Origin: an uncultured Flavobacteriaceae bacterium
Lineage (GTDB): Bacteria; Bacteroidota; Bacteroidia; Flavobacteriales; Flavobacteriaceae
Length of the DNA: 45,688 nt
Assembly (NCBI GenBank): GCA_905182575.1
Contig: CAJJCA010000009.1
Span: forward strand, 1-45,688
Direction: 5' to 3'
The translations under genes and the position numbers were made by a program. The notes below the pieces were generated by a model. The model was not told where the DNA came from, did no database searches, and was given only the letters and a program-made list of their open reading frames with translations. The first letter of the stretch is position 1, and every line of letters begins with the position of its first letter. Shown piece by piece: positions 6,091 through 45,688 of the stretch.

Positions 6091-6134
6091 AAAAACACAG
6101 AGAATAATGTATAAAGATAACTGCAGTTTTAGTT

Positions 6135-6167
6135 TTAAACCATAGGCATAACATCTTGAGTAAGTTA
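6135..6167 (-). repeat. LTEDDMPVV-type gene-end repeat, copy 1
   Basis: On the minus strand the short frame reads L-T-Q-D-V-M-P-M-V-stop. It matches four other spacer copies (9975, 40089, 41727, 42664), with mostly synonymous or conservative changes. It lies just past the 3' end of the SGNH pseudogene and before the MFS gene end. Confidence 0.55.
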
Positions 6168-6185
6168 TTAGGGTTCTTATTTTTT

Positions 6186-9974: not shown

Positions 9975-10013
9975 TTAAAACACTAAAGGCATATCCTCTT
10001 CAGTAAGTTTTAC
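9975..10013 (-). repeat. LTEDDMPVV-type gene-end repeat, copy 2
   Basis: The minus-strand frame reads K-L-T-E-E-D-M-P-L-V-F-stop. Together with the adjacent hairpin, the 9945-10013 block matches 41696-41762 over about 68 bases. Confidence 0.6.
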
Positions 10014-29196: not shown

Positions 29197-30312
29197 TTTT
29201 AAAAACACATTTGATTTATACGATTGGGATCAGCTTGAAAAAGAAATCTATGGTTTCTCTGCGGCAGATGTAAAAACTGTATTATCAAAAAAAACAAAAT
29301 CACCATAGATGATTTTAAAATATTGATCTCGCCAGCGGCAAAACCTTTTATAGAGGAAATGGCACAAAGAAGCAGTGCAATCACTAAGAAACGTTTTGGG
29401 AAAACCATTCAAATGTACCTTCCTATGTACCTTTCAAACGAATGTCAAAATATTTGTACTTATTGTGGGTTTAGCATGACCAATAAGATCAAAAGAAAAA
29501 CACTTTCTGATAAAGAAATTCTCGATGAAGTGGCACATATCAAACGTTTGGGGTATGATCACATTCTTTTGGTAACAGGCGAAGCCAACAGAACTGTGGG
29601 AGTTTCTTACTTGAAAAACGCCATCAACCTCATTCAATCACATTTTTCAAACATCAGCATCGAGGTTCAGCCCCTTGATCAGGAAGAGTATGAAAATTTG
29701 ATTGAAGAAGGTTTGTATGCTGTATTGGTCTACCAAGAAACTTATCATAAAGCTACTTATAAGACTCACCATCCTAAAGGAAAAAAATCCAATTTCGATT
29801 ATCGATTAGACACTCCTGATCGGTTGGGACGTGCTGGAATTCATAAAATTGGGTTGGGTGCTCTTTTTGGTTTGGAAGATTGGAGGGTCGATAGTTTTTA
29901 TACAGCATTGCATTTAAAATACCTGCAAAAAAACTATTGGAAAACGAAATACTCTATTTCATTTCCAAGACTCCGACCGCATCAGGGAGACGTGATGCCC
30001 AAGGTCGAAATGACCGATGCTGATCTGGTTCAATTGATTTGCGCCTATCGCCTATTGGATGAAGACGTGGAGCTATCAATGTCCACTCGAGAAAGTGAAA
30101 CTTTTAGAAACAACATTGTGAATTTAGGAATAACTTCCATAAGTGCAGAATCTAAAACCAACCCAGGAGGTTATGCGGTAGAACCCGAGTCCTTTGAACA
30201 ATTTGAGATTTCGGATGAAAGAAGCACCGAAGAAATCAAACAAATGATTCAATCGCAGGGATATGAAGTAGTTTGGAAAGACTGGGACAAGAGTTATTTT
30301 GAAATTGCATAA
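29189..30312 (+). pseudogene. thiH: 2-iminoacetate synthase ThiH, frameshift near the start
   Basis: A radical SAM tyrosine lyase that makes dehydroglycine for ThiG. The cluster motif C-x3-C-x2-C is in SNECQNICTYCGFS, as in all ThiH. The ATG at 29189 overlaps the end of thiG by eight bases, and the first 43 codons read [20 protein letters not shown]. They then run into a TAG, because the run of eight A at 29287-29294 needs nine; in the right frame the protein continues KITIDDFKILISPAAKPFIE to the stop at 30312. Reconstructed length is about 373 residues, normal. With the whole operon otherwise intact, a base-calling error is the likelier cause. Confidence 0.93.
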
Positions 30313-36795: not shown

Positions 36796-38318
36796 TTATT
36801 TTTTGAAAATGATCCTGTTTTCATCATAAATAGGGCTTTCTATTCCTAAGAAATCTAAAACACTGTGAAAAACATTATGTTGGTATAAAACTTCATTGTT
36901 CTTAAGTGTTTTGGCATCATCAGATAGCCAAACAATAAATGGAATTTCTAATTGTTCCTTTGGTGCAATACTTGCAGGTATACCGTGCATATATAAATTA
37001 TTTTCGCCTAAAGATTCTCCATGATCAGAAACATAAAACATAGAACTATTATATTCTTCCAATTCTTTTAATTCCTCAATTAAACTAGACAAAATGAAGT
37101 CCGTGTAAACAATGGTATTGTCGTAAGCATTTATTAGTTCTTCTTGGGTACATTTTCCCAACTCTACATTTTCGCATACTGGTGTGAATTTATTAAATTT
37201 GGTGGATATTTCTTGTAGTAAGTTGGTCCATGGCTGGTACTGGTGTGGAGTACGAGTAATATTTTATCTTTTTTACTTTCCAACAATTGTGCTCTTAAAC
37301 CGCTGAGTAATATTTCATCATATCCACACCCTTCCCCTTCGCATAGTTTTTCTAAAGCTGCCCCCTACCTTGATAGTTATTAATCTTAACAGCAGGCTCT
37401 CCCCAGTTTGTAGTTCTCCAAATAACTTCTACATCATTTCTAAATAAATAATTGGGTAAAGTCTCATACGATTCACCGCCATCTTTGTGTTCTAGAATGC
37501 ACTGAACTCCAGCAGTCGTATAGGTTGCACAGGATTCTGCTTTATAACTATAAACATTCTCTATCTTAGAAAGCAGCGGATTTGTTTCCTTCCCATAACC
37601 GTATAATGAAAAGTTTTCACTTCGAGCAGATTCTCCAATTACAAGTACTGCAATAGATTTTTTATCATTCTCTATAGTAGCGTGTTTAAAGGGCTTTTTT
37701 TGCTTATTTTCTTCATTTTTGTGAATATAAAATCGAGAGGTATTTACAATATAGGACCAGGGCATAACCAAACCTCCTAAGGCTTTTGAATTTTTATCAA
37801 TCCACAACCAACTACTAGAGTTGCAAGAATTTTAGGAGAAAATGAATTAATGCCGAGCCGATATGTGCCAAAAAAGTTTTGAGTTTTACTTTAACAATTT
37901 TAATTTTAAAAATTAAAATATTTGGGATCACTCCTAACAAAATTAAATACAGAATCAAGCTAAAAGAAAAGAAACTACTGGACTCTTCATAATTGGTGTT
38001 GAGAACATTACCAATCATTGTTTTGTCTATTATTACTCCATAAGTAAATATAAAATATACAGCAATTGCATTTGTGTTGACAGAAAGAACCAGTAATACT
38101 CTACCAATAAAAGGTGCTATAAATAGTATTATATAAAAAATAAGCGCGTTTAAAACTAAAATGGTAGCAATCAAACTGACAAGGGTTAAAACTCCATCCA
38201 AACTTTTATAGTCCAAATTATCCGTAGCGAATTGAAATAACGGCAGGTGGTATAAAACTAAATTAACACAACTAATTATTAATGAAACGTAGCTTACTTT
38301 AATGTTGTTTTTGAACAT
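36796..38318 (-). pseudogene. phosphoethanolamine transferase (EptA-like), frameshifted
   Basis: Adds phosphoethanolamine to lipid A or another envelope lipid at the periplasmic side. The N-terminal part (38318 to 37815) has five hydrophobic segments starting MFKNNIKVSYVSLIISCVN. The middle (37807 to 37352) opens the sulfatase-like domain with VLVIGESARSENFSLYGYG and the nucleophile Thr in SCATYTTAGVQCI. The end (37161 to 36796) has MFYVSDHGESLGENNLYMHG, the zinc-binding Asp/His set. Frames break at about 37815, at 37355, and in an AAA run at about 37190; between the last two the frame reads EKLCEGEGCGYDEILLSGLR. Normal length is about 510-540. It overlaps the PAP2 gene by 20 bases. Confidence 0.85.
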
Positions 38319-39062
38319 GAATCTTTATCATTAAATATAATGTTGTAAAAATAGAAAATAGTGAAATATAAACCACCAACAGATTTTTGTCATAAATTTC
38401 TTTGATGAGAGCAAGGGCCCAAATTATTAAAAAGAAAATTATAAAGGTATAATATTTTTTATTTTTAATAAAATCCCAATACAAATTAAATAACTTACTA
38501 TGCTCGTCTCCGTGCACAGATGTATCCAATCGTACTGCCAATAAAAACATCAACTGGAAAATGCGCTCCTACTCCAACTCTAGAAAACGCAATAAATAAT
38601 CCAACCACAAGAATAAAAAAAGTCCATAATATTTTGTTTTAAATTCCTTGGGCATAAATGCGAATAGTAATAAAGTAATTACTGAAAAAGTTGTTATTGA
38701 ATGTCCCGATGGCAAGCTTGAAAAACCGGTATGTACTCTTCCTATAATTACAAAAAATTCATTATCAAGTATTTCTGCAGGTCTAGGAACATCAAATATT
38801 TCTTTTAGTAGAAATGATATTACGGCTGAAATTATTGTAGGTATTTTAATGATTTTATACGTTTAGGTGCATAAACAATAAAAACAGTCAAAAAAGGCAA
38901 AATTATTAGTGGATTACCCAGCTGCGTTAAGTTAAATTGTAAGCTGGAAAGCTCGGATAATTTACTGTTTAAATAAAAAAATAAATCTTTTTGAATTTCA
39001 ACATAACCCTCAACACTAAAAGCACCATGCTGAAGTAGTAATAAAACAATTACAAACAACAA
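38299..39062 (-). pseudogene. PAP2-family lipid phosphatase, frameshifted and start lost
   Basis: An inner-membrane phosphatase of the PAP2 superfamily (as in lipid A or undecaprenyl pyrophosphate phosphatases). Reading leftward, all three active-site blocks are found across three frames: KEIFDVPRPAEI, then FSSLPSGHSITTF, then FSRVGVGAHFPVDVFIG. An early membrane helix and NLTQLGNPLIILPFLTVFIV precede them. Frame changes lie at about 38840 and 38600. Above 39062 the frame stays open to about 39192, but no proper start is seen, and the upstream side collides with the truncated recombinase, so the N-terminus is probably lost. It overlaps the transferase gene, and the two likely form an operon for lipid A remodelling. 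Confidence 0.8.
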
Positions 39063-39133
39063 TAAAAAAGGAATAAAAAGTAATCTTAATCTTATGTTGT
39101 TAAAGTTATTAATTACTAGATTGGCTTTGTTAG

Positions 39134-39799
39134 AACGAAAACATACTCTATTTAAGCCCCAAAGAGCTACGATTAATAGAAGATGCTCCCCTATTGAGTA
39201 ATTCGCTTAAAAACGCTCGGAAATGGCTCCTACTGGGCTGCAACATTGGGCAAAGAGGGAGTGACCTATTGCTATTAGATGAAACCAATTTTATAAATAG
39301 AAACGGCCTAGACGTAATTGAATTAAAGCAGCAAAAAACAGATAAAAGAGTTACAATTCCAGTGCTTGAAAAAACTAAAGAAATCATAAAAGATGGATTG
39401 CCTTACAAAATATCAATTCAGAAATTCAACAAGCATATTAAAGAAATATGTAGAATTGCAGAGATTAACGAAATGATAAATGATAGTAAGATAACTGTAA
39501 CAGAAATAGGCAAAGGGAACAAAGAGAAAAGAAAAGTAAGTGGCACTTATCCAAAATGGGAACTAATGGCTTCACACGTTTGCAGACGTTCTTTCTGCAC
39601 TAACCTCTACGGAACTCTTCCAACTCCCTTAATAATGAGTATATCCGCTCACAGTTCAGAAAAGATGCTATTAAACTATATTGGTAAAGACAGTTTAGAT
39701 TTTGCTCAGCAAATTGCTGATTTCTATACCCTACAAGCCTTAAGAGAGAAAAAAGAGCCTCAATTAAAAGTAATTAAAAACGCCTCTTCACAAGATTAG
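39134..39799 (+). pseudogene. tyrosine recombinase, catalytic-domain fragment
   Basis: A Bacteroidota-type tyrosine recombinase/integrase lacking its N-terminal arm and core-binding domains. The frame opens at 39134 after a TAG and begins ILYLSPKELRLIEDA, then ARKWLLLGCNIGQRGSDLLL with the first catalytic Arg. Further on are the H-x-x-R block in SHVCRRSFCTNL, the second His in SAHSSEKML, and the nucleophile Tyr in LLNYIGKDSL, so the catalytic residues survive. The protein ends at 39799. It is 5'-cut exactly where the oppositely oriented PAP2 gene begins, and 128 bases before the first large direct repeat. Probably an immobile remnant. Confidence 0.8.
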
Positions 39800-39926
39800 T
39801 CAAGCTGAAAGCAAATACTCTAAGCGCTCTTGTTATATGCATACCAGCATGATAGCTTACACTCTAACTAGCTCTATTAACTAGCAAAAAGCAAAAAAAT
39901 CCAGGAGTCTTTTAAAGACTCTCACC

Positions 39927-40024
39927 CCCCACCCCTTCAAAATAAGTCTATTTCCCTTTTGGGGATACGCTGGTGAAATGGGTATATAATCTAATCTCCT
40001 AATCCAACTATGGGTTTTTTATGC
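39927..40024. repeat. 98-bp direct repeat, copy A
   Basis: Nearly identical to 41942-42038; shared blocks include CCCCACCCCTTCAAAATAAG, TTTTGGGGATACGCTGGTG and GAAATGGGTATATAA, then CTAATCTCCTAATCCA. The match may extend left to about 39892 more weakly. It ends in GGGTTTTTTATGC on this strand, and a T-rich run also lies at the left end on the other strand. Both strands have short open frames, but neither looks like a known protein. Confidence 0.9.
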
Positions 40025-40088
40025 TTAATTATATTTCTCTATATTTAAACATCTAATAACCAACACTGTGAAAAAGTAACTTTTTCTG

Positions 40089-40128
40089 TTAAACCACATG
40101 CATATCATTTTTTGTAAGTTCAAATAGC
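40089..40128 (-). repeat. LTEDDMPVV-type gene-end repeat, copy 3
   Basis: The minus-strand frame reads I-A-R-L-F-E-L-T-K-N-D-M-H-V-V-stop. It joins the C-I-x-R-L-F ending seen at 5198 and 8262 to the L-T-E-D-D-M-P-V-V ending of the other copies, so the two repeat families appear to be parts of one sequence. Confidence 0.55.
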
Positions 40129-40141
40129 CTTGCAATATACT

Positions 40142-40558
40142 TTACAGGACTATTTCTTTGTATTTATCAATAATTTGTTGATTTAATTTACTCTTATTAT
40201 TAACATTCATATTAAGCATATAAATATCACTTTCCCTAATATTATTATGACTCCACAAAGCTAATTCAGTAATAACTGGAGTTAATGAAAGTCCTTTTTC
40301 AGTCAGATTGTAGATAAAAGTTTTCTTGTTATCTGGATGATTTACTTTAGTTATAAATCCAGTTTTTAATAAAGTTTTTAAACGAGCTGACAAAATATTT
40401 GGTGCTATAGACTCGTCACTCTCATAAAAATCTTTGAATGTTTTTTTGTATTCAAGTAGCATTAGTTTTATGATAACAAGGGTCCATTTATCTCCAACAA
40501 CATCTAATGCTGAAGTTACAGGACAATCACACCTAAAAATCTTATCTAAAAATGACAT
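40142..40558 (-). CDS. HxlR-family transcriptional regulator
   Basis: A 138-residue winged helix-turn-helix regulator. The N-terminal CDCPVTSALDVVGDKWTLVI is the HxlR signature with Cys at positions 10 and 12, which in some members sense oxidants or aldehydes. The recognition helix region is APNILSARLKTLLKTGFITK, and the wing is the following HPDNKKTFIYNLTEKG. It is divergent from the SDR gene, with two exact 16-bp repeats in the 91-base gap, so control of that gene is likely. Intact, bracketed by the direct repeats. Confidence 0.9.
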   Translation of the reverse strand: MSFLDKIFRCDCPVTSALDVVGDKWTLVIIKLMLLEYKKTFKDFYESDESIAPNILSARLKTLLKTGFITKVNHPDNKKTFIYNLTEKGLSLTPVITELALWSHNNIRESDIYMLNMNVNNKSKLNQQIIDKYKEIVL

Positions 40559-40576
40559 AATTTTTTTAAACTAAAT

Positions 40577-40625
40577 TTTACTATCAAAACAATAGTTATT
40601 TATTCTATCTTTACTATCAAAACAA
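40577..40625. promoter_or_regulatory. direct-repeat operator pair between hxlR and the SDR gene
   Basis: TTTACTATCAAAACAA occurs exactly twice, at 40577-40592 and 40610-40625, 33 bases apart start to start (about three helical turns). It sits between divergent starts, so it is a good candidate for the HxlR binding site. Confidence 0.65.
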
Positions 40626-40649
40626 AAGTAATAATAAATAATCTATCAA

Positions 40650-41663
40650 ATGAATAAAAAAGTATTGTTAACGGGTATTTCGGGATATATCGGTAATCAT
40701 TGTGCTGTGGAGCTATTGAAGAATGGATATTCTGTTCGTGGTTCCGTAAGAAGTCTTTCAAAATCAGAAAAAGTTATTGCCGTAATTAAAAAAGAAGTAG
40801 ACCCAAAAGATAATTTGGAGTTTTGTGAGTTGGACCTTCTAAGTGATGACGGCTGGGATGATGCAATGAAAGGATGTGAGTTTGTATTGCATGTGGCTTC
40901 TCCGTTTATCATTTTAGAGCCAAAAGACGAAAATGAATATATTAGACCTGCTGTTGATGGCACAATTAGAGCCTTAAAGGCAGCGAAAAAAGCAGGTATT
41001 AAGCGTGTTGTCCTTACTTCTTCGATGGTCTCTATGTTAGAAGATGCCGACAAATCAATCGATATTAACTTCGAGTCTTGGACGAATGTTAATGCTAAAA
41101 ATGTAAATGCTTATGCAAAAAGTAAAACCTTAGCTGAGCAAGCTGCTTGGGACTTTATTCGTGCTCAAACTGATGCTAAACCAATGGAACTTTCTGTTGT
41201 GAATCCAGGTCCTGTTTATGGCCCAACTCTCTCGGGTGACTTATCAGGAGCTTCTATGGGTATGTTTAAGCAAATAATGTCAGGGAAAATGCCAATGGTT
41301 CCTCAGGCTGCAATTAACATGTCTGATGTTCGAGACATTGCCAAAATCCATGTTTTAGCACTTGAAAATGAAAATGCTAATGGAAAACGTTTTATTGTAG
41401 CAACTGAGAAAGCTCACAAGTTTCAGGATATTGCCCAGCATATAAAATCCAATGGATATGATAAGGTAAGTACAAGATTAGCTCCAAATTTTTTACTAAA
41501 TTTTATTGGTAATTTTGATAGAGAAGCTCGAAGTATGAAGACTTTTATTGGTAAAACATACGATGGTGATGTTTCCTCAACAATGGAAACATTCGATTGG
41601 AAGCCAATTAGTTTAGAAAAAACTGTTTTGGATACTATTAAATCAATAGAATCATTTGCTTAG
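40650..41663 (+). CDS. extended SDR, NAD-dependent epimerase/dihydroflavonol reductase-like
   Basis: A 337-residue extended short-chain dehydrogenase of the dihydroflavonol 4-reductase/aldehyde reductase group. The cofactor loop is LLTGISGYIGNHCAVELLKN (G-x-x-G-x-x-G), and the catalytic Tyr/Lys pair is in YAKSKTLAEQAAW, preceded by VVLTSSMVSML with the Ser. VVNPGPVYGPTL follows, as expected. Likely reduces an aldehyde or ketone with NADPH; substrate unknown. A terminator follows at 41696. It is divergent from the HxlR gene, with shared repeats, so induction by a reactive aldehyde is a reasonable guess. Confidence 0.88.
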   Translation: MNKKVLLTGISGYIGNHCAVELLKNGYSVRGSVRSLSKSEKVIAVIKKEVDPKDNLEFCELDLLSDDGWDDAMKGCEFVLHVASPFIILEPKDENEYIRPAVDGTIRALKAAKKAGIKRVVLTSSMVSMLEDADKSIDINFESWTNVNAKNVNAYAKSKTLAEQAAWDFIRAQTDAKPMELSVVNPGPVYGPTLSGDLSGASMGMFKQIMSGKMPMVPQAAINMSDVRDIAKIHVLALENENANGKRFIVATEKAHKFQDIAQHIKSNGYDKVSTRLAPNFLLNFIGNFDREARSMKTFIGKTYDGDVSSTMETFDWKPISLEKTVLDTIKSIESFA

Positions 41664-41695
41664 TAAATGTTATTTTTATTGTGCTTTTATAAATT

Positions 41696-41719
41696 CGCCT
41701 CTAATTAAGTTTAGTGGCG
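41696..41719 (+). terminator. intrinsic terminator after the SDR gene
   Basis: CGCCTCTAA (41696-41704) pairs with TTTAGTGGCG around TTAAG, with one mismatch, then TTTTC. It is closely similar to the terminator at 9945. Confidence 0.7.
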
Positions 41720-41726
41720 TTTTCTT

Positions 41727-41762
41727 TTAAACCACAGGCATATCATCTTCAGTGAGTTCTGG
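41727..41762 (-). repeat. LTEDDMPVV-type gene-end repeat, copy 4
   Basis: The minus-strand frame reads E-L-T-E-D-D-M-P-V-V-stop, the consensus form. With the adjacent hairpin it matches 9945-10013. Confidence 0.65.
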
Positions 41763-41941
41763 TATTTCTAAACCTCTTAAATAGGTCAAACTAACGTTTA
41801 TAGCTAACTTTTATAAGCCCAAGAATTTCATCAGTCGTATAGCTCTAAACCACCTATTTCACTGGGATAGCTGGGTTCTAATTACCTACTTTTATTTGGG
41901 GTTAACCCCAAAAAATCCAACCTAAAACTCTCAATTCAACA

Positions 41942-42038
41942 CCCCACCCCTTCAAAATAAGTCTATTTTCCTTTTGGGGATACGCTGGTGAAATGGGTAT
42001 ATAACCTAATCTCCTAATCCATCTAGGGTTTTTTATGC
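41942..42038. repeat. 98-bp direct repeat, copy B
   Basis: Same orientation as copy A about 2,015 bases upstream, with a handful of differences by eye. The two copies bracket the HxlR/SDR pair. It ends in GGGTTTTTTATGC, 76 bases before the next gene. Confidence 0.9.
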
Positions 42039-42113
42039 AAAAACGTGACATATGTCATTTTTTAAATGGTTCAATAATTATAAATTAGATTTTTAATCAT
42101 AAATCAATTTAAA

Positions 42114-42545
42114 ATGAGAAAAATAACATTAGTTTTAGTTTCTATTCTTATTCTTGGATGCAGTGGAACTGGAGTACAACTTAGTGCTGCCTCACGAGGA
42201 ACTGCTGTACATGAACTTGCTGAAAACTATTTAAATAATGATATGGATGGACTAAAGTCTCTTTGGTCTCCTGACTTAAAGGTATATCTTAATAGTACAG
42301 AATCAATTTCACTTGAAGAATTAGAAGTTTTATTACAGGCTCAACATACTACTTTTGACCCTATTACAATGTCATGGGGGCAAAATGATAATCAAGATAT
42401 TAAACAATGGGTTGAAACAACTAATTATCCTGCTGGACCAGCTAATGATGCTGTTACAGTTACTCAAACTTGGTTTAATTGGATAGCTACAAGCAAATTG
42501 ACTGGAGAAAAAATTACAATGCCAGCGCACATAAGCTTTGTTTAG
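42114..42545 (+). CDS. lipoprotein with SnoaL/NTF2-like fold, probably cut at the C-terminus
   Basis: 143 residues starting with a lipoprotein signal (MRKITLVLVSILILGCSG, lipobox LILGC, Cys16). The mature part, with AVHELAENYLNNDMDGLKSLWSPDL and then WFNWIATSKLTGEKITMPAH, reads like the NTF2/SnoaL cone-shaped domain common in flavobacterial small proteins. Family members normally run on with V-W-E-x-D-K-I and a final strand; here a stop follows ISFV. The sequence after about 42545 has a different look, so the end was probably lost. No catalytic residue can be assigned. Confidence 0.6.
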   Translation: MRKITLVLVSILILGCSGTGVQLSAASRGTAVHELAENYLNNDMDGLKSLWSPDLKVYLNSTESISLEELEVLLQAQHTTFDPITMSWGQNDNQDIKQWVETTNYPAGPANDAVTVTQTWFNWIATSKLTGEKITMPAHISFV

Positions 42546-42916
42546 ACTTCTTAGTGGTTAGGGCAGAATCTTGTGTGACTGTTTCACATGCAACTGTAGA
42601 GGCATCAGCCGTAGTAGTACCTGGTCCGAATACACATTTACTGAATAGTCCGCTAGGGGTATTTTAATTCAACTCAGGCATATCCTCTTCAGAAAGTTCA
42701 AGATGATATGCCTGTACTAAGGACAAGTCTACCAAATCGGTCTGTTAACGTTTATTTGGGATGACCCTGTTGCAAAATCAATTGGATGAGTCAAAATATT
42801 AGTGACACTCACATCCAATATAATCAGAAAAAATTATTGTATGCCATGCCTGCAAAGAACAGAGCTGGATGGCAAACGGGCCATTCATTCCAAATGTAGA
42901 TATCCTTTTCGTTAGT
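42546..42916. other. spacer with gene-end repeat and hairpin
   Basis: No supported gene. Copy 5 of the LTEDDMPVV-type repeat lies at 42664-42705, overlapping an exact 9-bp inverted repeat AGGCATATC/GATATGCCT (42676-42684 with 42705-42713). The plus-strand frame over 42546-42667 is open but unrecognised. Confidence 0.5.
42664..42705 (-). repeat. LTEDDMPVV-type gene-end repeat, copy 5
   Basis: The minus-strand frame reads E-L-S-E-E-D-M-P-E-L-N-stop, preceded by about 16 open codons (ending S-L-V-Q-A-Y-H-L). It is the most divergent copy but keeps the E-E-D-M-P core. Confidence 0.5.
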
Positions 42917-43934
42917 TTATTTACACTGAATTAGGACATGGATCGATTTATCATCAGATTTATCATTTCTAAGCTCAAAAGCCTCTTGAATTTGGCTCAA
43001 TGGGTATATATGAGTGATCATTTGTTTCGTATTAATAAGACCATCCAACACTAGTTGAACAGCCTCCTGATAAAACCGTCGCATATCAATATCCGATCTT
43101 GGTTCAGTGCTTAATATTGATAGTCGTTTGCGATGCACCTTGAAAAAATCGAAAGGTTCATTACATATGCCAATGCAGCCGTACATGACTATTTTACCGC
43201 AAAAAGCGGCACAATCAAGAGCGTCTATCATGCCCTCTCCATCCAATAAACATGGTATAACAATATCAAAACCATCTGGAAAATCCTGTTTCAAAACTTC
43301 AAAGTTTGAAGTTTTTTCATTTTTAATTTTGTAGGTGTGGGTTCCACCGTATTTTTTTGCGAGACTTAGTTTATGATCGTGCAAATCGGTAACCACAAGA
43401 TTTTTAGGGCTAAATAATTTGGTCACCTGTGTCATGATCAGACCGCTAACCCCTTGCCCCATGATCAGGACATTCGAGTTTGGTTTTATATCTGACAACT
43501 CAGCTGCGTGCATGATGCCTGGAAGTACTTCCAGTAGGCTTGTCTCCTTGATAGGGAAATAGTCAGGTACAACCTTAACATTAAAAGGTTCGCAAACTAT
43601 ATATTCAGCAAAGGCTCCCCGAAACATACCTGCAGGTTACTTTATCTCCTTTTTTTATCGAAGAAATGTTCTTTCCGACTTTATCCACGATTCCCCCAAC
43701 TTAGTGCCCCAGTCGGTTCGGGAATGACAGGAATTCTGGATGTCTGTTTCCTCTGTAACATTCCAAGTCTGATCCACAAATACCAACAAAAGCAATCTTT
43801 ATTCTGATCTCATCTTCGTTTGGTTCTGGTATTTCGGCAAAACCCAAATCCATTTTAAACGGTTCTCTCAATATGGCAACCCGCTGATTGTTCGGATGAT
43901 ATTCATCCACCGGTTTCAGGTTAGCTAGCAACAT
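42917..43934 (-). pseudogene. medium-chain alcohol dehydrogenase (zinc-type), broken
   Basis: An NAD(P)-dependent dehydrogenase of the zinc-binding MDR family. The N-terminal GroES-like part (43934 to 43701) has FVGICGSDLECYRGNRHPEF with the first zinc Cys, then L-G-H followed by TAA where the family has Glu (GHE), then VGGIVDKVGKNISSIKKGD. After a frame change at about 43645 the Rossmann part reads FAEYIVCEPFNV, VLIMGQGVSGLIMTQVTKLF and DGFDIVIPCL, ending at 42917. The structural zinc loop between the two is missing (about 25 residues). So this has a nonsense change, a shift and a loss. Substrate unknown. Confidence 0.75.
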
Positions 43935-44221
43935 TTTTGAAGAAATATAATAATTTAATTAATATTTAGGATTAGTCTTTATCCCTGAACTTACTAGAGT
44001 TGATCTTCATTTCACATATTTTTTCCCAGTTCCAGAATTGTTTGTTGGTTTTCCAGCTGGTTTAGAACTTGGATTTTATTTTTGAAAGAAGGGAATCGAC
44101 TCATTGAAAAAGAAATCAACTTATAATGATTGAAAAATATTTCTCTTTCAAACAAAATTGTTTATTTTCAATAATTAAAGTTTTTAAATATAAATGATAA
44201 CTCAATATAACTTTTAAAATC

Positions 44222-44350
44222 ATGGCTCATTACAATAAACTTTTATTAGTACTAAGTATATTTATATTCTTTTCATCTTGTGAAAACAAAAAATCAACTC
44301 CAATTCAATCCATTGCTGAATTAGACTTAAAGGATACATCGGTCTTTTGA
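44222..44350 (+). pseudogene. lipoprotein head fragment
   Basis: 42 codons: MAHYNKLLLVLSIFIFFSSC is a good lipoprotein leader (Cys20), followed by ENKKSTPIQSIAELDLKD and then TGA. No domain follows, so it is either a tiny lipoprotein or, more likely, the cut start of a larger one. A GACTCC-TGCT-GGAGTC hairpin lies 35 bases after the stop. Confidence 0.45.
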
Positions 44351-44384
44351 TTCTTTTACAACCTAGACTACTAAGGTCTTGATA

Positions 44385-44400
44385 GACTCCTGCTGGAGTC
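44385..44400. repeat. short perfect hairpin
   Basis: GACTCC/GGAGTC around TGCT, exact 6-bp stem. No T-run follows directly, so it is not a standard terminator. Confidence 0.5.
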
Positions 44401-44455
44401 AGCTAGGTGAGAGTTAAAAATATTTAACTACATTTAATTTAAAATAATTTGCATT

Positions 44456-44498
44456 ATGAAAAAGCTATTCCTTATACTTTTATTCATTCCTTATTAAT
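44456..44498 (+). pseudogene. signal-peptide stub
   Basis: An ATG followed by KKLFLILLFIPY and a stop. It looks like a cut-off signal peptide, in the same style as the head fragment at 44222. The partial repeat at 44516 follows directly. Confidence 0.35.
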
Positions 44499-44515
44499 TA
44501 AAACAAGATATCGAT

Positions 44516-44545
44516 CCTCATCTAATCCAACTAGGGTTTTTTATG
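44516..44545. repeat. 98-bp repeat, partial copy C
   Basis: Only the right end is present: CTAATCCAACTAGGGTTTTT and then ATG. It is 15 bases before the DUF5916 gene, just as the complete copies lie before their following segments. Confidence 0.65.
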
Positions 44546-44559
44546 GTTAATTAATTTAA

Positions 44560-45688
44560 ATGAAAAAAAAAATAAAGACACTATTATTACTCAAATTCTT
44601 ATTTATAACTAGTCAAATTATTTCCCAGGATCTTGTGCCTGAATATATAGTGAAGTTTACGTCATTACCTATTATGATTGACGGAAATGATAATGATTTA
44701 CCCTGGGACTCTACCAACTCAATAAATACTCAATGGACAAACTTCCCCAACGTAACAAATGACTTTGAGTCACCTACTCAAGTTAAGATGCTTTACGATG
44801 ATAGGTACATTTATATTTTATGTAAAGCAATCACAAAAAATAAAAATTTTGTAATACCATCATTGAGATGGGATTTTAGCGGAAGGGCATCTGATAAAAT
44901 TAATTTAGCTTTTGATACATTTAGTGATGGAAACAATGCTTATCACTTTGGCTCTAATATGGTTGGTGTTAAAGCTGACGCATTAATTTCTAACGGTGGA
45001 GTTGGTGGATCAGGAAGCAGGACAGAAGTTTATAACCGTTCTTGGGATGGAAAATGGGATGTAGAAGGCGGGATTTATGATGGTTATTATTTAATTGAAT
45101 TTAGAATTCCTTTCTCTACTTTACATTATCCAAAGGATTCGGAATCATGGAGATTTAATTTTACCCGAAATGATACTCAGCATAAACAAAGAACGACTTG
45201 GGTAAAGATTCCGCAGCAATTTAACACAATTAATCTTTCTTTTCTTGGAAAAATTAAGTTTGAGAAAGGTCTTTCAAAGCCAAAAGGAAAAGTTTCATAT
45301 ATACCATATGTAAATGGGCTTTCAGAAAAAAATAATATTTATGATAGATCACTCAATCAGTTAAGTTATGGAGGTGATATTAAAATTCCTATTAGCTCTG
45401 GGCTTAATGTTGATTTAACCATCAATCCTGACTTTTCCCAAGTTGAAGTCGATAATGAAATCATTAACCTTAGTATGTTTGAAGTCAGAATGGATGAGAA
45501 AAGACAGTTTTTTCTTCAAAATAAAGATATTTTTTCAAATTTTGGAGCAGCGAGAACTACTAATCCCTTTTTTACCAGAAGGATAGGTCTTTCTAGAGAC
45601 CTTAATGGTGATTTAATTCAAAATAAAATTGTAGGTGGATTCAGATTAAGTGGTAAAATTAATAATAATCTTAAGATTGGTGTGCTGA
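44560..45688 (+). CDS. DUF5916 outer-membrane-associated protein, partial
   Basis: An open frame of 376 codons runs off the right edge with no stop. A signal peptide (about 1-22, ending SQIISQ) is followed by a CBM9-like beta-sandwich (about residues 28-220), with PIMIDGNDNDLPWDSTNSIN and later VKMLYDDRYIYILCKA, as in carbohydrate-binding family 9-type domains at the front of DUF5916 proteins. The DUF5916 part begins at about residue 245 with the tell-tale NPDFSQVEVDNEIINLSMFE, then MDEKRQFFLQNKDIFSNFGA and FFTRRIGLSRDL. The full protein is expected to be 750-850 residues, with an outer-membrane barrel-like second half. Its role is unproven. No frameshift in the visible part. Confidence 0.88.
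   Translation, partial: MKKKIKTLLLLKFLFITSQIISQDLVPEYIVKFTSLPIMIDGNDNDLPWDSTNSINTQWTNFPNVTNDFESPTQVKMLYDDRYIYILCKAITKNKNFVIPSLRWDFSGRASDKINLAFDTFSDGNNAYHFGSNMVGVKADALISNGGVGGSGSRTEVYNRSWDGKWDVEGGIYDGYYLIEFRIPFSTLHYPKDSESWRFNFTRNDTQHKQRTTWVKIPQQFNTINLSFLGKIKFEKGLSKPKGKVSYIPYVNGLSEKNNIYDRSLNQLSYGGDIKIPISSGLNVDLTINPDFSQVEVDNEIINLSMFEVRMDEKRQFFLQNKDIFSNFGAARTTNPFFTRRIGLSRDLNGDLIQNKIVGGFRLSGKINNNLKIGVL

Follow-up and report, generated by a model that had tools for sequence, protein, structure and literature searches.

A probable decayed gene-cassette stretch in an uncultured Flavobacteriaceae genome, with sites matching the 3' end of a tyrosine recombinase gene

The DNA described here, referred to below as the window, is a stretch of 45,688 nt from an uncultured Flavobacteriaceae bacterium (assembly GCA_905182575.1, contig CAJJCA010000009.1, positions 1 to 45,688 of the forward strand). 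Near its right end lie, in the order given by a preliminary description of the sequence, genes for an HxlR-type regulator, an SDR protein, a lipoprotein-like protein of 143 amino acids (aa), an alcohol dehydrogenase (ADH) and a DUF5916 protein. A repeat finder returned a 44-nt repeat with three copies among these genes (nt 40078, 41716 and 42656; 73–80% identity to the middle copy). The middle copy follows the SDR gene and its minus strand encodes LAINVSLTYLRGLEIPELTEDDMPVV and a stop codon; nt 41728–41803 of that strand are the 3' end of a tyrosine recombinase gene, the codon for the catalytic tyrosine included. IntX (gene: intX, or int) is used here as a working label for the recombinase whose 3' end forms this site. 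The site copies and the genes that they enclose are as follows.

nt 6132–6170, minus strand: weak site copy (nhmmer E 0.0095 in the window alone; 32/38 consensus bases)
nt 9975–10013, minus strand: site copy downstream of a 496-aa open reading frame (ORF) (nhmmer E 8e-5 in the window alone, 3e-3 in 1.68 Mb; 28/38 bases)
nt 40086–40124, minus strand: decayed site before the HxlR gene, presumed left edge of a cassette (30/38 genus-consensus bases)
nt 40142–40558, minus strand: HxlR-type regulator (Pfam PF01638, E 1.9e-14), presumed cargo of the first cassette
nt 40650–41663, plus strand: NAD-dependent epimerase/SDR gene (Pfam PF01370, E 1.2e-26), presumed cargo of the first cassette
nt 41728–41803, minus strand: full-length cassette site, the last 25 IntX codons and stop (nhmmer E 1.4e-18 over the 1.68 Mb searched; tblastn matches to the C-termini of intact IntX)
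nt 41737–41744, plus strand: core in which crossover presumably takes place, GGCATATC (reading GATATGCC on the int strand), placed by relatives' junctions and as the best dyad centre
nt 42114–42545, plus strand: lipoprotein-like 143-aa gene (ORF), presumed cargo of the second cassette
nt 42664–42702, minus strand: decayed site after the 143-aa gene (nhmmer E 5.6e-4 in the window alone; 28/38 consensus bases)

The copy at nt 40086–40124 is 80–81% identical to that at 41716 (85% over 40 nt), and the 143-aa protein matched no Pfam family at E 0.001. Five site copies of the window share one strand (nt 6145, 9988, 40099, 41737 and 42677). To judge from the sites on either side, the HxlR and SDR genes, between nt 40099 and 41737, are probably one decayed cassette, and the lipoprotein-like gene with the leader before it (modules M2 and M3, described below), from nt 41737 to 42677, is presumed to be a second. 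Together with the comparisons that follow, these features lead us to read the window as a decayed stretch of an integron-like gene-cassette system, at a probability of roughly 0.8. A truncated second site copy (nt ~42699–42718; nhmmer E 0.12) is joined head to head to the site at nt 42664–42702, and the two opposed cores (nt 42677–42718, the inverted one at 42712) are possibly the scar of an inversion.

An nhmmer model built on 68 IntX 3' ends was searched against 1.68 Mb of sequence with a cut-off of E<0.01 and returned 211 matches, compared with 0 in shuffled sequence. Intact-looking int ORFs contain 64 of these, and 147 lie outside such ORFs; int-like sequence lies upstream of 20 of the latter, and the other 127 are solo copies, which comprise the last 12–25 IntX codons and stand at the ends of genes. 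A convergent gene end abuts 101 of the 122 flanked solo sites (median distance 26 nt; 19% at random positions), and a co-directional gene start is found, instead or additionally, at 13 of the 122 (random positions, 19%). Neighbouring sites are on the same strand in 101 cases and on opposite strands in 5, with a median spacing of 1,042 bp, and where both neighbours are solo the figures are 61 and 4. The layout counts were recomputed on the 127 solo sites, with the 20 remnant ends removed, and the outcome was unchanged. Of the solo sites, 59/101 keep the int stop codon in place. Among the 50 solo sites close to an intact int, 47 share its strand (36 located 3' of int and 11 located 5' of it), and 3 are on the opposite strand.

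A genome scan gave 79 named loci, mostly labelled Flavobacteriales but also Marinoscillum, Flammeovirgaceae and Cyclobacteriaceae; the few with labels such as Rhodobacteraceae or Euryarchaeota are probably misplaced bins. In 38 of the 79 loci the final 90 nt of int are found again, 92 times in all, compared with 5 times in 4 loci for a control segment. Of the 92 recurring tails, 87 are on the int strand; 57 of the 92 are on the 3' side of int and 35 on its 5' side, and one of the 92 (in locus L112, which was anchored on a second tail) is int itself. A position weight matrix (PWM) of the 26-bp core gave 99 matches in 542 kb of array sequence from the window's genus, compared with 6 in shuffled sequence; some of these sites had also been used to train the matrix. 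Within the array runs of this genus, sites follow gene ends in one direction, and in four genomes (G009, G011, G015 and G017) the last site of the run is the 3' end of an IntX gene or IntX remnant. Different gene sets stand beside one 374-aa gene in G006, G007 and G015. The Polaribacter chromosome OX044355 (L222) has 14 same-strand sites in 11 kb, mostly delimiting single-gene cassettes, and 23 tail matches across the genome. These are same-direction cassette arrays with one site per cassette, as in an integron.

The cassette cargo that was scanned (20 + 2 proteins) includes DUF6090, DUF4440/SnoaL, DUF285 with a secretion tail, GH5 cellulase and DUF3764 proteins; there were also a few matches below cut-off, and 9 of the first 20 proteins gave no family. 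DUF6090 is a recurrent cargo (4/20 proteins scanned; L222 and L124). A PADLOC search with 8 cargo proteins and IntX gave no match, and no vehicle for the cassettes was found in viral contigs, phages or plasmids.

Conservation of the full-length sites is limited to roughly positions -76 to 0 (n=52; the profile includes some int-remnant ends, 11 of the 27 shown). Information content drops at the site edges, from 1.14 bits inside to 0.15 and 0.05 outside, and site length differs by clade, being ~76 bp in some and ~38 bp in others. Arrays of int tails might also arise by accretion, if int-bearing islands were inserted serially, for example at tRNA genes, and their ints decayed to 3' tails. tRNA genes do occur close to int, ARAGORN having placed one within 700 bp (<=700 bp) upstream of 15/64 ints compared with 4/38 control windows; decayed tRNAs were seen by eye elsewhere, and longer int remnants are present at 20/147 copies outside intact ints. 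Random decay, however, should produce varied lengths, and the full-length sites co-terminate near -76. The flanks carry 0.15 bits of information at sites as against 1.61 in intact ints, and the same cassette can be found beside an intact int in one genome and within an array in another. We therefore regard accretion as improbable. In five loci (L098, L092, L102, L109 and L111) the 5' ends of int and of a tRNA gene (or, judged by eye, a decayed copy of one) are opposed, and TGCCA motifs lie in the interval.

Third codon positions vary more than the first two in the standalone copies, and the reading frame is open in 63/70 copies of the genus, both as expected if the copies pass through an int gene. 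A TANNTTTG box, which we take to be the Bacteroidetes -7 promoter motif, follows 15/53 sites compared with 12/409 background windows.

Exact cassettes occur in changed order. One cassette of 398 bp, matched edge to edge, is the first after Int in L141 and lies inside arrays in L130 and L190 (91–94%), while another cassette, which comes directly after Int in L130, is located behind a later site in L141 (91% over 1,376/1,745 bp, to the contig end). Cassettes of L138 are also present in L168 (98%), L190 (95%) and the OX044355 chromosome (97%). In the window's genus, the sites L013 5157 and L108 10733 share a gene and have different sequence after the site, and L013 5157 and L108 13847 share the sequence after the site. 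Crossover positions were compared in pairs of sites aligned with GATATGCC as anchor. In 7 pairs with the same gene and another R side, identity was close to background on the int side (0.71 beside the core, as against 0.63) and stayed high on the gene side (0.90 and 0.89, as against background values of 0.64 and 0.32). In 12 pairs with the same int (>=94%, that is, at least 94%) and another gene, it was 0.84–0.94 on the int side and 0.81, then 0.38, on the gene side. Earlier estimates of the crossover from BLAST ends (+16 to +27 of the core; -37 to -19) were superseded by the anchored comparison, and L186, a candidate for a perfect junction, proved to be a contig end and was discarded.

The core GATATGCC codes for Asp-Met-Pro (DMP) at the C-terminus of IntX. 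The Asp codon is GAT in 38/38 ints, compared with 358/541 for all Asp codons there, the third base of the Pro codon varies, and after DMP there are 23 distinct endings among 39 ints. Across 116 sites the dyad score peaks in the middle of ATATG within GATATGCC (0.452; mean 0.274, sd 0.051). Junctions, dyad centre and codon use agree in pointing to an 8-bp and presumably double-stranded core. Cassettes could also be shuffled without a site-specific enzyme, by RecA homologous recombination between short old int 3' ends: the sites are mutually similar, at ~76 bp or shorter, at least one long array (L222) lacks an intact int in the 20 kb that were read, and the activity of IntX is something that we infer. 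The switch, however, falls in one 8-bp core and not anywhere in 76 bp (7 + 12 pairs), and that core has a dyad centre and is conserved beyond the need of the protein, so that homologous recombination appears an unlikely source of the arrays.

IntX proteins are 347–349 aa long. Of the 22 genus genomes examined, those of five sister species (G004, G006, G007, G009 and G015) each have a single intact ORF; intact IntX is also present in many other marine Flavobacteriales, with strong matches (E up to 1e-50) in 15/296 genomes sampled across the order. The only Pfam match above cut-off is Phage_integrase (PF00589). The catalytic residues of tyrosine recombinases are R, HxxR, H and Y, and IntX has this set together with the catalytic fold. 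An AlphaFold2 model (predicted local distance difference test, pLDDT, 90.6) consists of N-terminal strands and a helix, a core-binding domain and then the catalytic domain, with low confidence after the tyrosine. A search of solved-structure sequences at E 0.001 returned a XerC-like recombinase and two P2 integrase chains, IntI being unlisted. In structure comparisons XerA, Tn1549 Int, HP1 Int, IntI and Cre were tied, so that IntI is inseparable by this measure from Cre, Xer and phage Int. Excerpts of PMC8138268 class integron integrases as simple recombinases and describe the enzymes of phages and integrative and conjugative elements (ICEs) as having an extra DNA-binding domain; with the extra domain of its model, IntX looks like the phage/ICE class of that scheme. 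No relatives of IntX were found in viral contigs, phages or plasmids, in a search that did not extend to phage or conjugation genes in its neighbourhood.

An ordinary integron with an unusual integrase would also have same-direction arrays of small genes, one site each, and a related tyrosine recombinase, and excerpts of PMC9892861 report integron-type attC sites in a Polaribacter phage. IntX, however, scores well short of the thresholds that NCBIfam sets for integron integrase and Xer, its best score with the integron integrase profile TIGR02249 being 22.2 bits against a cut-off of 265, and the site linked to int shares its bases with the 3' end of that gene. Nor do the sites form the attC-like hairpins for which the preliminary description proposed a folding check: over 58 sites the mean folding z is -0.05 on one strand and -0.07 on the other, and tRNA genes, which served as the control in a set that included no attC, gave a mean z of -1.17 (n=15; 4/15 below -2). 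An ordinary integron is thus a very improbable explanation.

The most likely account of these sequences is that the substrates of IntX are cassette sites in double-stranded DNA which overlap the 3' end of intX itself, and that the last residues of the enzyme are replaced with each insertion. A cassette consists of a single gene or a few genes with a short site behind them, copied from the intX 3' end, and arrays usually point to, and often end in, the copy still within an intact intX. IntX would join double-stranded sites by strand exchange in the core GATATGCC. A circular cassette may enter at the intX copy, the previous cassette being pushed outwards, and each insertion would provide IntX with another stop codon and different last residues. 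We consider it likely on balance that this is an integron-independent cassette system of marine Bacteroidota, with docking at the enzyme gene's own 3' end, a double-stranded core GATATGCC and cassettes selected to encode IntX C-termini.

A number of observations weigh against a cassette system of this kind, or against the window as part of one. Among the window sites only that at nt 41728–41803 is full and strong, the others being decayed, and the left-edge site at 40086–40124 is marginal (nhmmer just E 0.23 in the window alone). Two weaker PWM matches in the window (nt 30177 and 44009) are on the opposite strand, and the matrix was trained partly on sites later scored. The HxlR and SDR genes were not seen as a cassette elsewhere, and in the loci of their closest relatives (L192 and L193; G018 and G013) no IntX site is present in the 2.3–2.5 kb of each. 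The window's own genome (70.7% complete) shows no intact intX. In relatives, 11/50 solo sites near an intact int and 35/92 recurring tails are on the 5', unexpected side of int, the array of G006 goes on past int on that side, and sites flanking int in G007 (C52) face opposite directions on its two sides. The complete isolate genome in the set, that of Flavobacterium ammonificans GENT11, has an intX with the core (L121 10980–11400), and its genome gave no further site at E 0.1. The junction pairs are few and non-independent (L190 7970 is used in two), and most of the data are metagenome-assembled genomes and single-cell genomes. Finally, the Int of G004 (349 aa; L111 3407–4456) has another ending after LRG, so that the core is not universal and a second junction point may exist. 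By eye, the tail of this IntX abuts a sigma-factor-like gene.

The preliminary description had drawn the cassette differently, with 98-bp direct repeats (copies A, B and a partial copy C) as its edges and a nearby truncated recombinase gene as part of its outline. These and the remaining features of the locus are listed here.

nt 39134–39799, plus strand: 5'-truncated remnant of a phage-type tyrosine recombinase gene (Pfam PF00589, E 1.6e-6)
nt 39924–40024, plus strand: copy A of the 98-bp repeat (M3), a dispersed intergenic repeat and not a cassette edge
nt 41806–41905, plus strand: module M2, a dispersed repeat after the site and part of the leader before the next gene
nt 41906–42040, plus strand: copy B of M3 in its full 135-bp form
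within nt 42917–43934, minus strand: ADH, two ORFs
nt 44522–44545, plus strand: partial copy C, 24 nt near the M3 end
from nt 44560, plus strand: DUF5916 gene

The repeats themselves are real: copies A and B (nt 39924–40019 and 41939–42034) are 94% identical over 96 nt, or 95% over 101 nt in a second alignment (39924–40024 and 41939–42038), and the 24 nt of copy C match at 96%. They do not behave as cassette edges: a search of stretches from three species (G000, G012 and G004) gave 32 copies in mixed orientation, with only 3 within 200 nt of a cassette site. Single partial matches were also found in G011 and G013, and a 2.3-kb query around the repeats gave 50 matches in the same genome, counting itself. 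No collapsed A/B site without the HxlR and SDR genes was found. The site, M2 and M3 together are 81% conserved with G012 over 398 columns, with a different gene there (L107 1678). M3 starts near GGGGTTAACCCC and is frequent in three species of the genus. A coding role for the 98-bp element (44-aa frame) was rejected, its matches lying in short frames, many with stops, and an Rfam search of nt 38800–44700 of the window gave nothing up to E 0.5.

The recombinase fragment upstream of copy A is present as described and ends at nt 39799, 124 bases before the repeat; its catalytic residues were read by eye only. It belongs to another, phage-type integrase, of which there are two further 5'-truncated copies in the genome, and is not the cassette enzyme. 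These two other remnants are on C17 (98%) and C24 (83%). The idea of a new system in which cassettes move between direct repeats thus survives in kind, with repeats derived from a recombinase gene, but not with the 98-bp edges or the local enzyme. The three phage-type remnants (window 39134–39799, L012 14008–14625 and L024 3720–4114) keep the 3' end and have a different 5' cut point in each; M3 follows two of them. That the recombinase had cut a PAP2 gene was unconfirmed, as the two pieces tested gave no PAP2 match in Pfam. Further broken genes are present nearby: a phosphoethanolamine-transferase-like gene (EptA_B_N and sulfatase domains) is in several pieces at nt 36796–38318 (minus strand), and the zinc alcohol dehydrogenase gene at nt 42917–43934 is broken into its two ORFs. 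Two short signal-peptide-like stubs, recognised by eye at nt 44222–44500 before the DUF5916 gene, suggest that further genes have been lost.

Integrons are the textbook bacterial route to stockpile and shuffle small genes. Complete integrons are reported to be very rare in Bacteroidetes, and in the excerpts of PMC9024848 the only one that IntegronFinder 2.0 gives for the group is that of Salinibacter ruber M1. A second cassette system, if true, would help to explain gene turnover in small-genome marine Flavobacteriales. It would also yield cassette genes from a new source (among them DUF6090, DUF4440/SnoaL-like, lipoprotein and DUF285 surface-protein genes) and be a clear example of a DNA site and a protein end using the same bases. 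The 8-bp core makes the proposed IntX system directly testable. A literature search, with most subscription papers and preprints outside its reach, found no such system described.

Among known systems, the integrases of Bacteroidota phages, ICEs and tRNA islands resemble IntX in PF00589, in the N-terminal domain that precedes the core-binding domain of the model, and in the tRNA gene near the 5' end of int in about a quarter of cases; they differ in that IntX has repeated cassette sites at its 3' end. The suicidal integrases of archaea (SSV1, pTN3 and pT26-2) have their att site inside the integrase gene, a position that repeats and junctions suggest for IntX as well. According to excerpts of PMC8371274, integration splits these genes in two and the type is exclusive to archaea. 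IntX, in contrast, has a Bacteroidota host and only PF00589 above cut-off, and the int ORFs beside cassettes keep their frame and stop; intX would stay whole because the incoming cassette supplies a compatible end. The likeness to integrons lies in the one-direction arrays of small genes, the single site per cassette, the tyrosine recombinase, the shuffled order and the existence of arrays without an enzyme. In integrons the primary site, attI, is beside the 5' end of the integrase gene, whereas the int-linked IntX site is within the 3' end of the enzyme's own gene. By profile IntX is not IntI, its sites are without a hairpin fold, and some of its cassettes carry the promoter-like TANNTTTG box (15/53). 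Overall, the sequence comparisons look like those of a gene-capture system separate from integrons.

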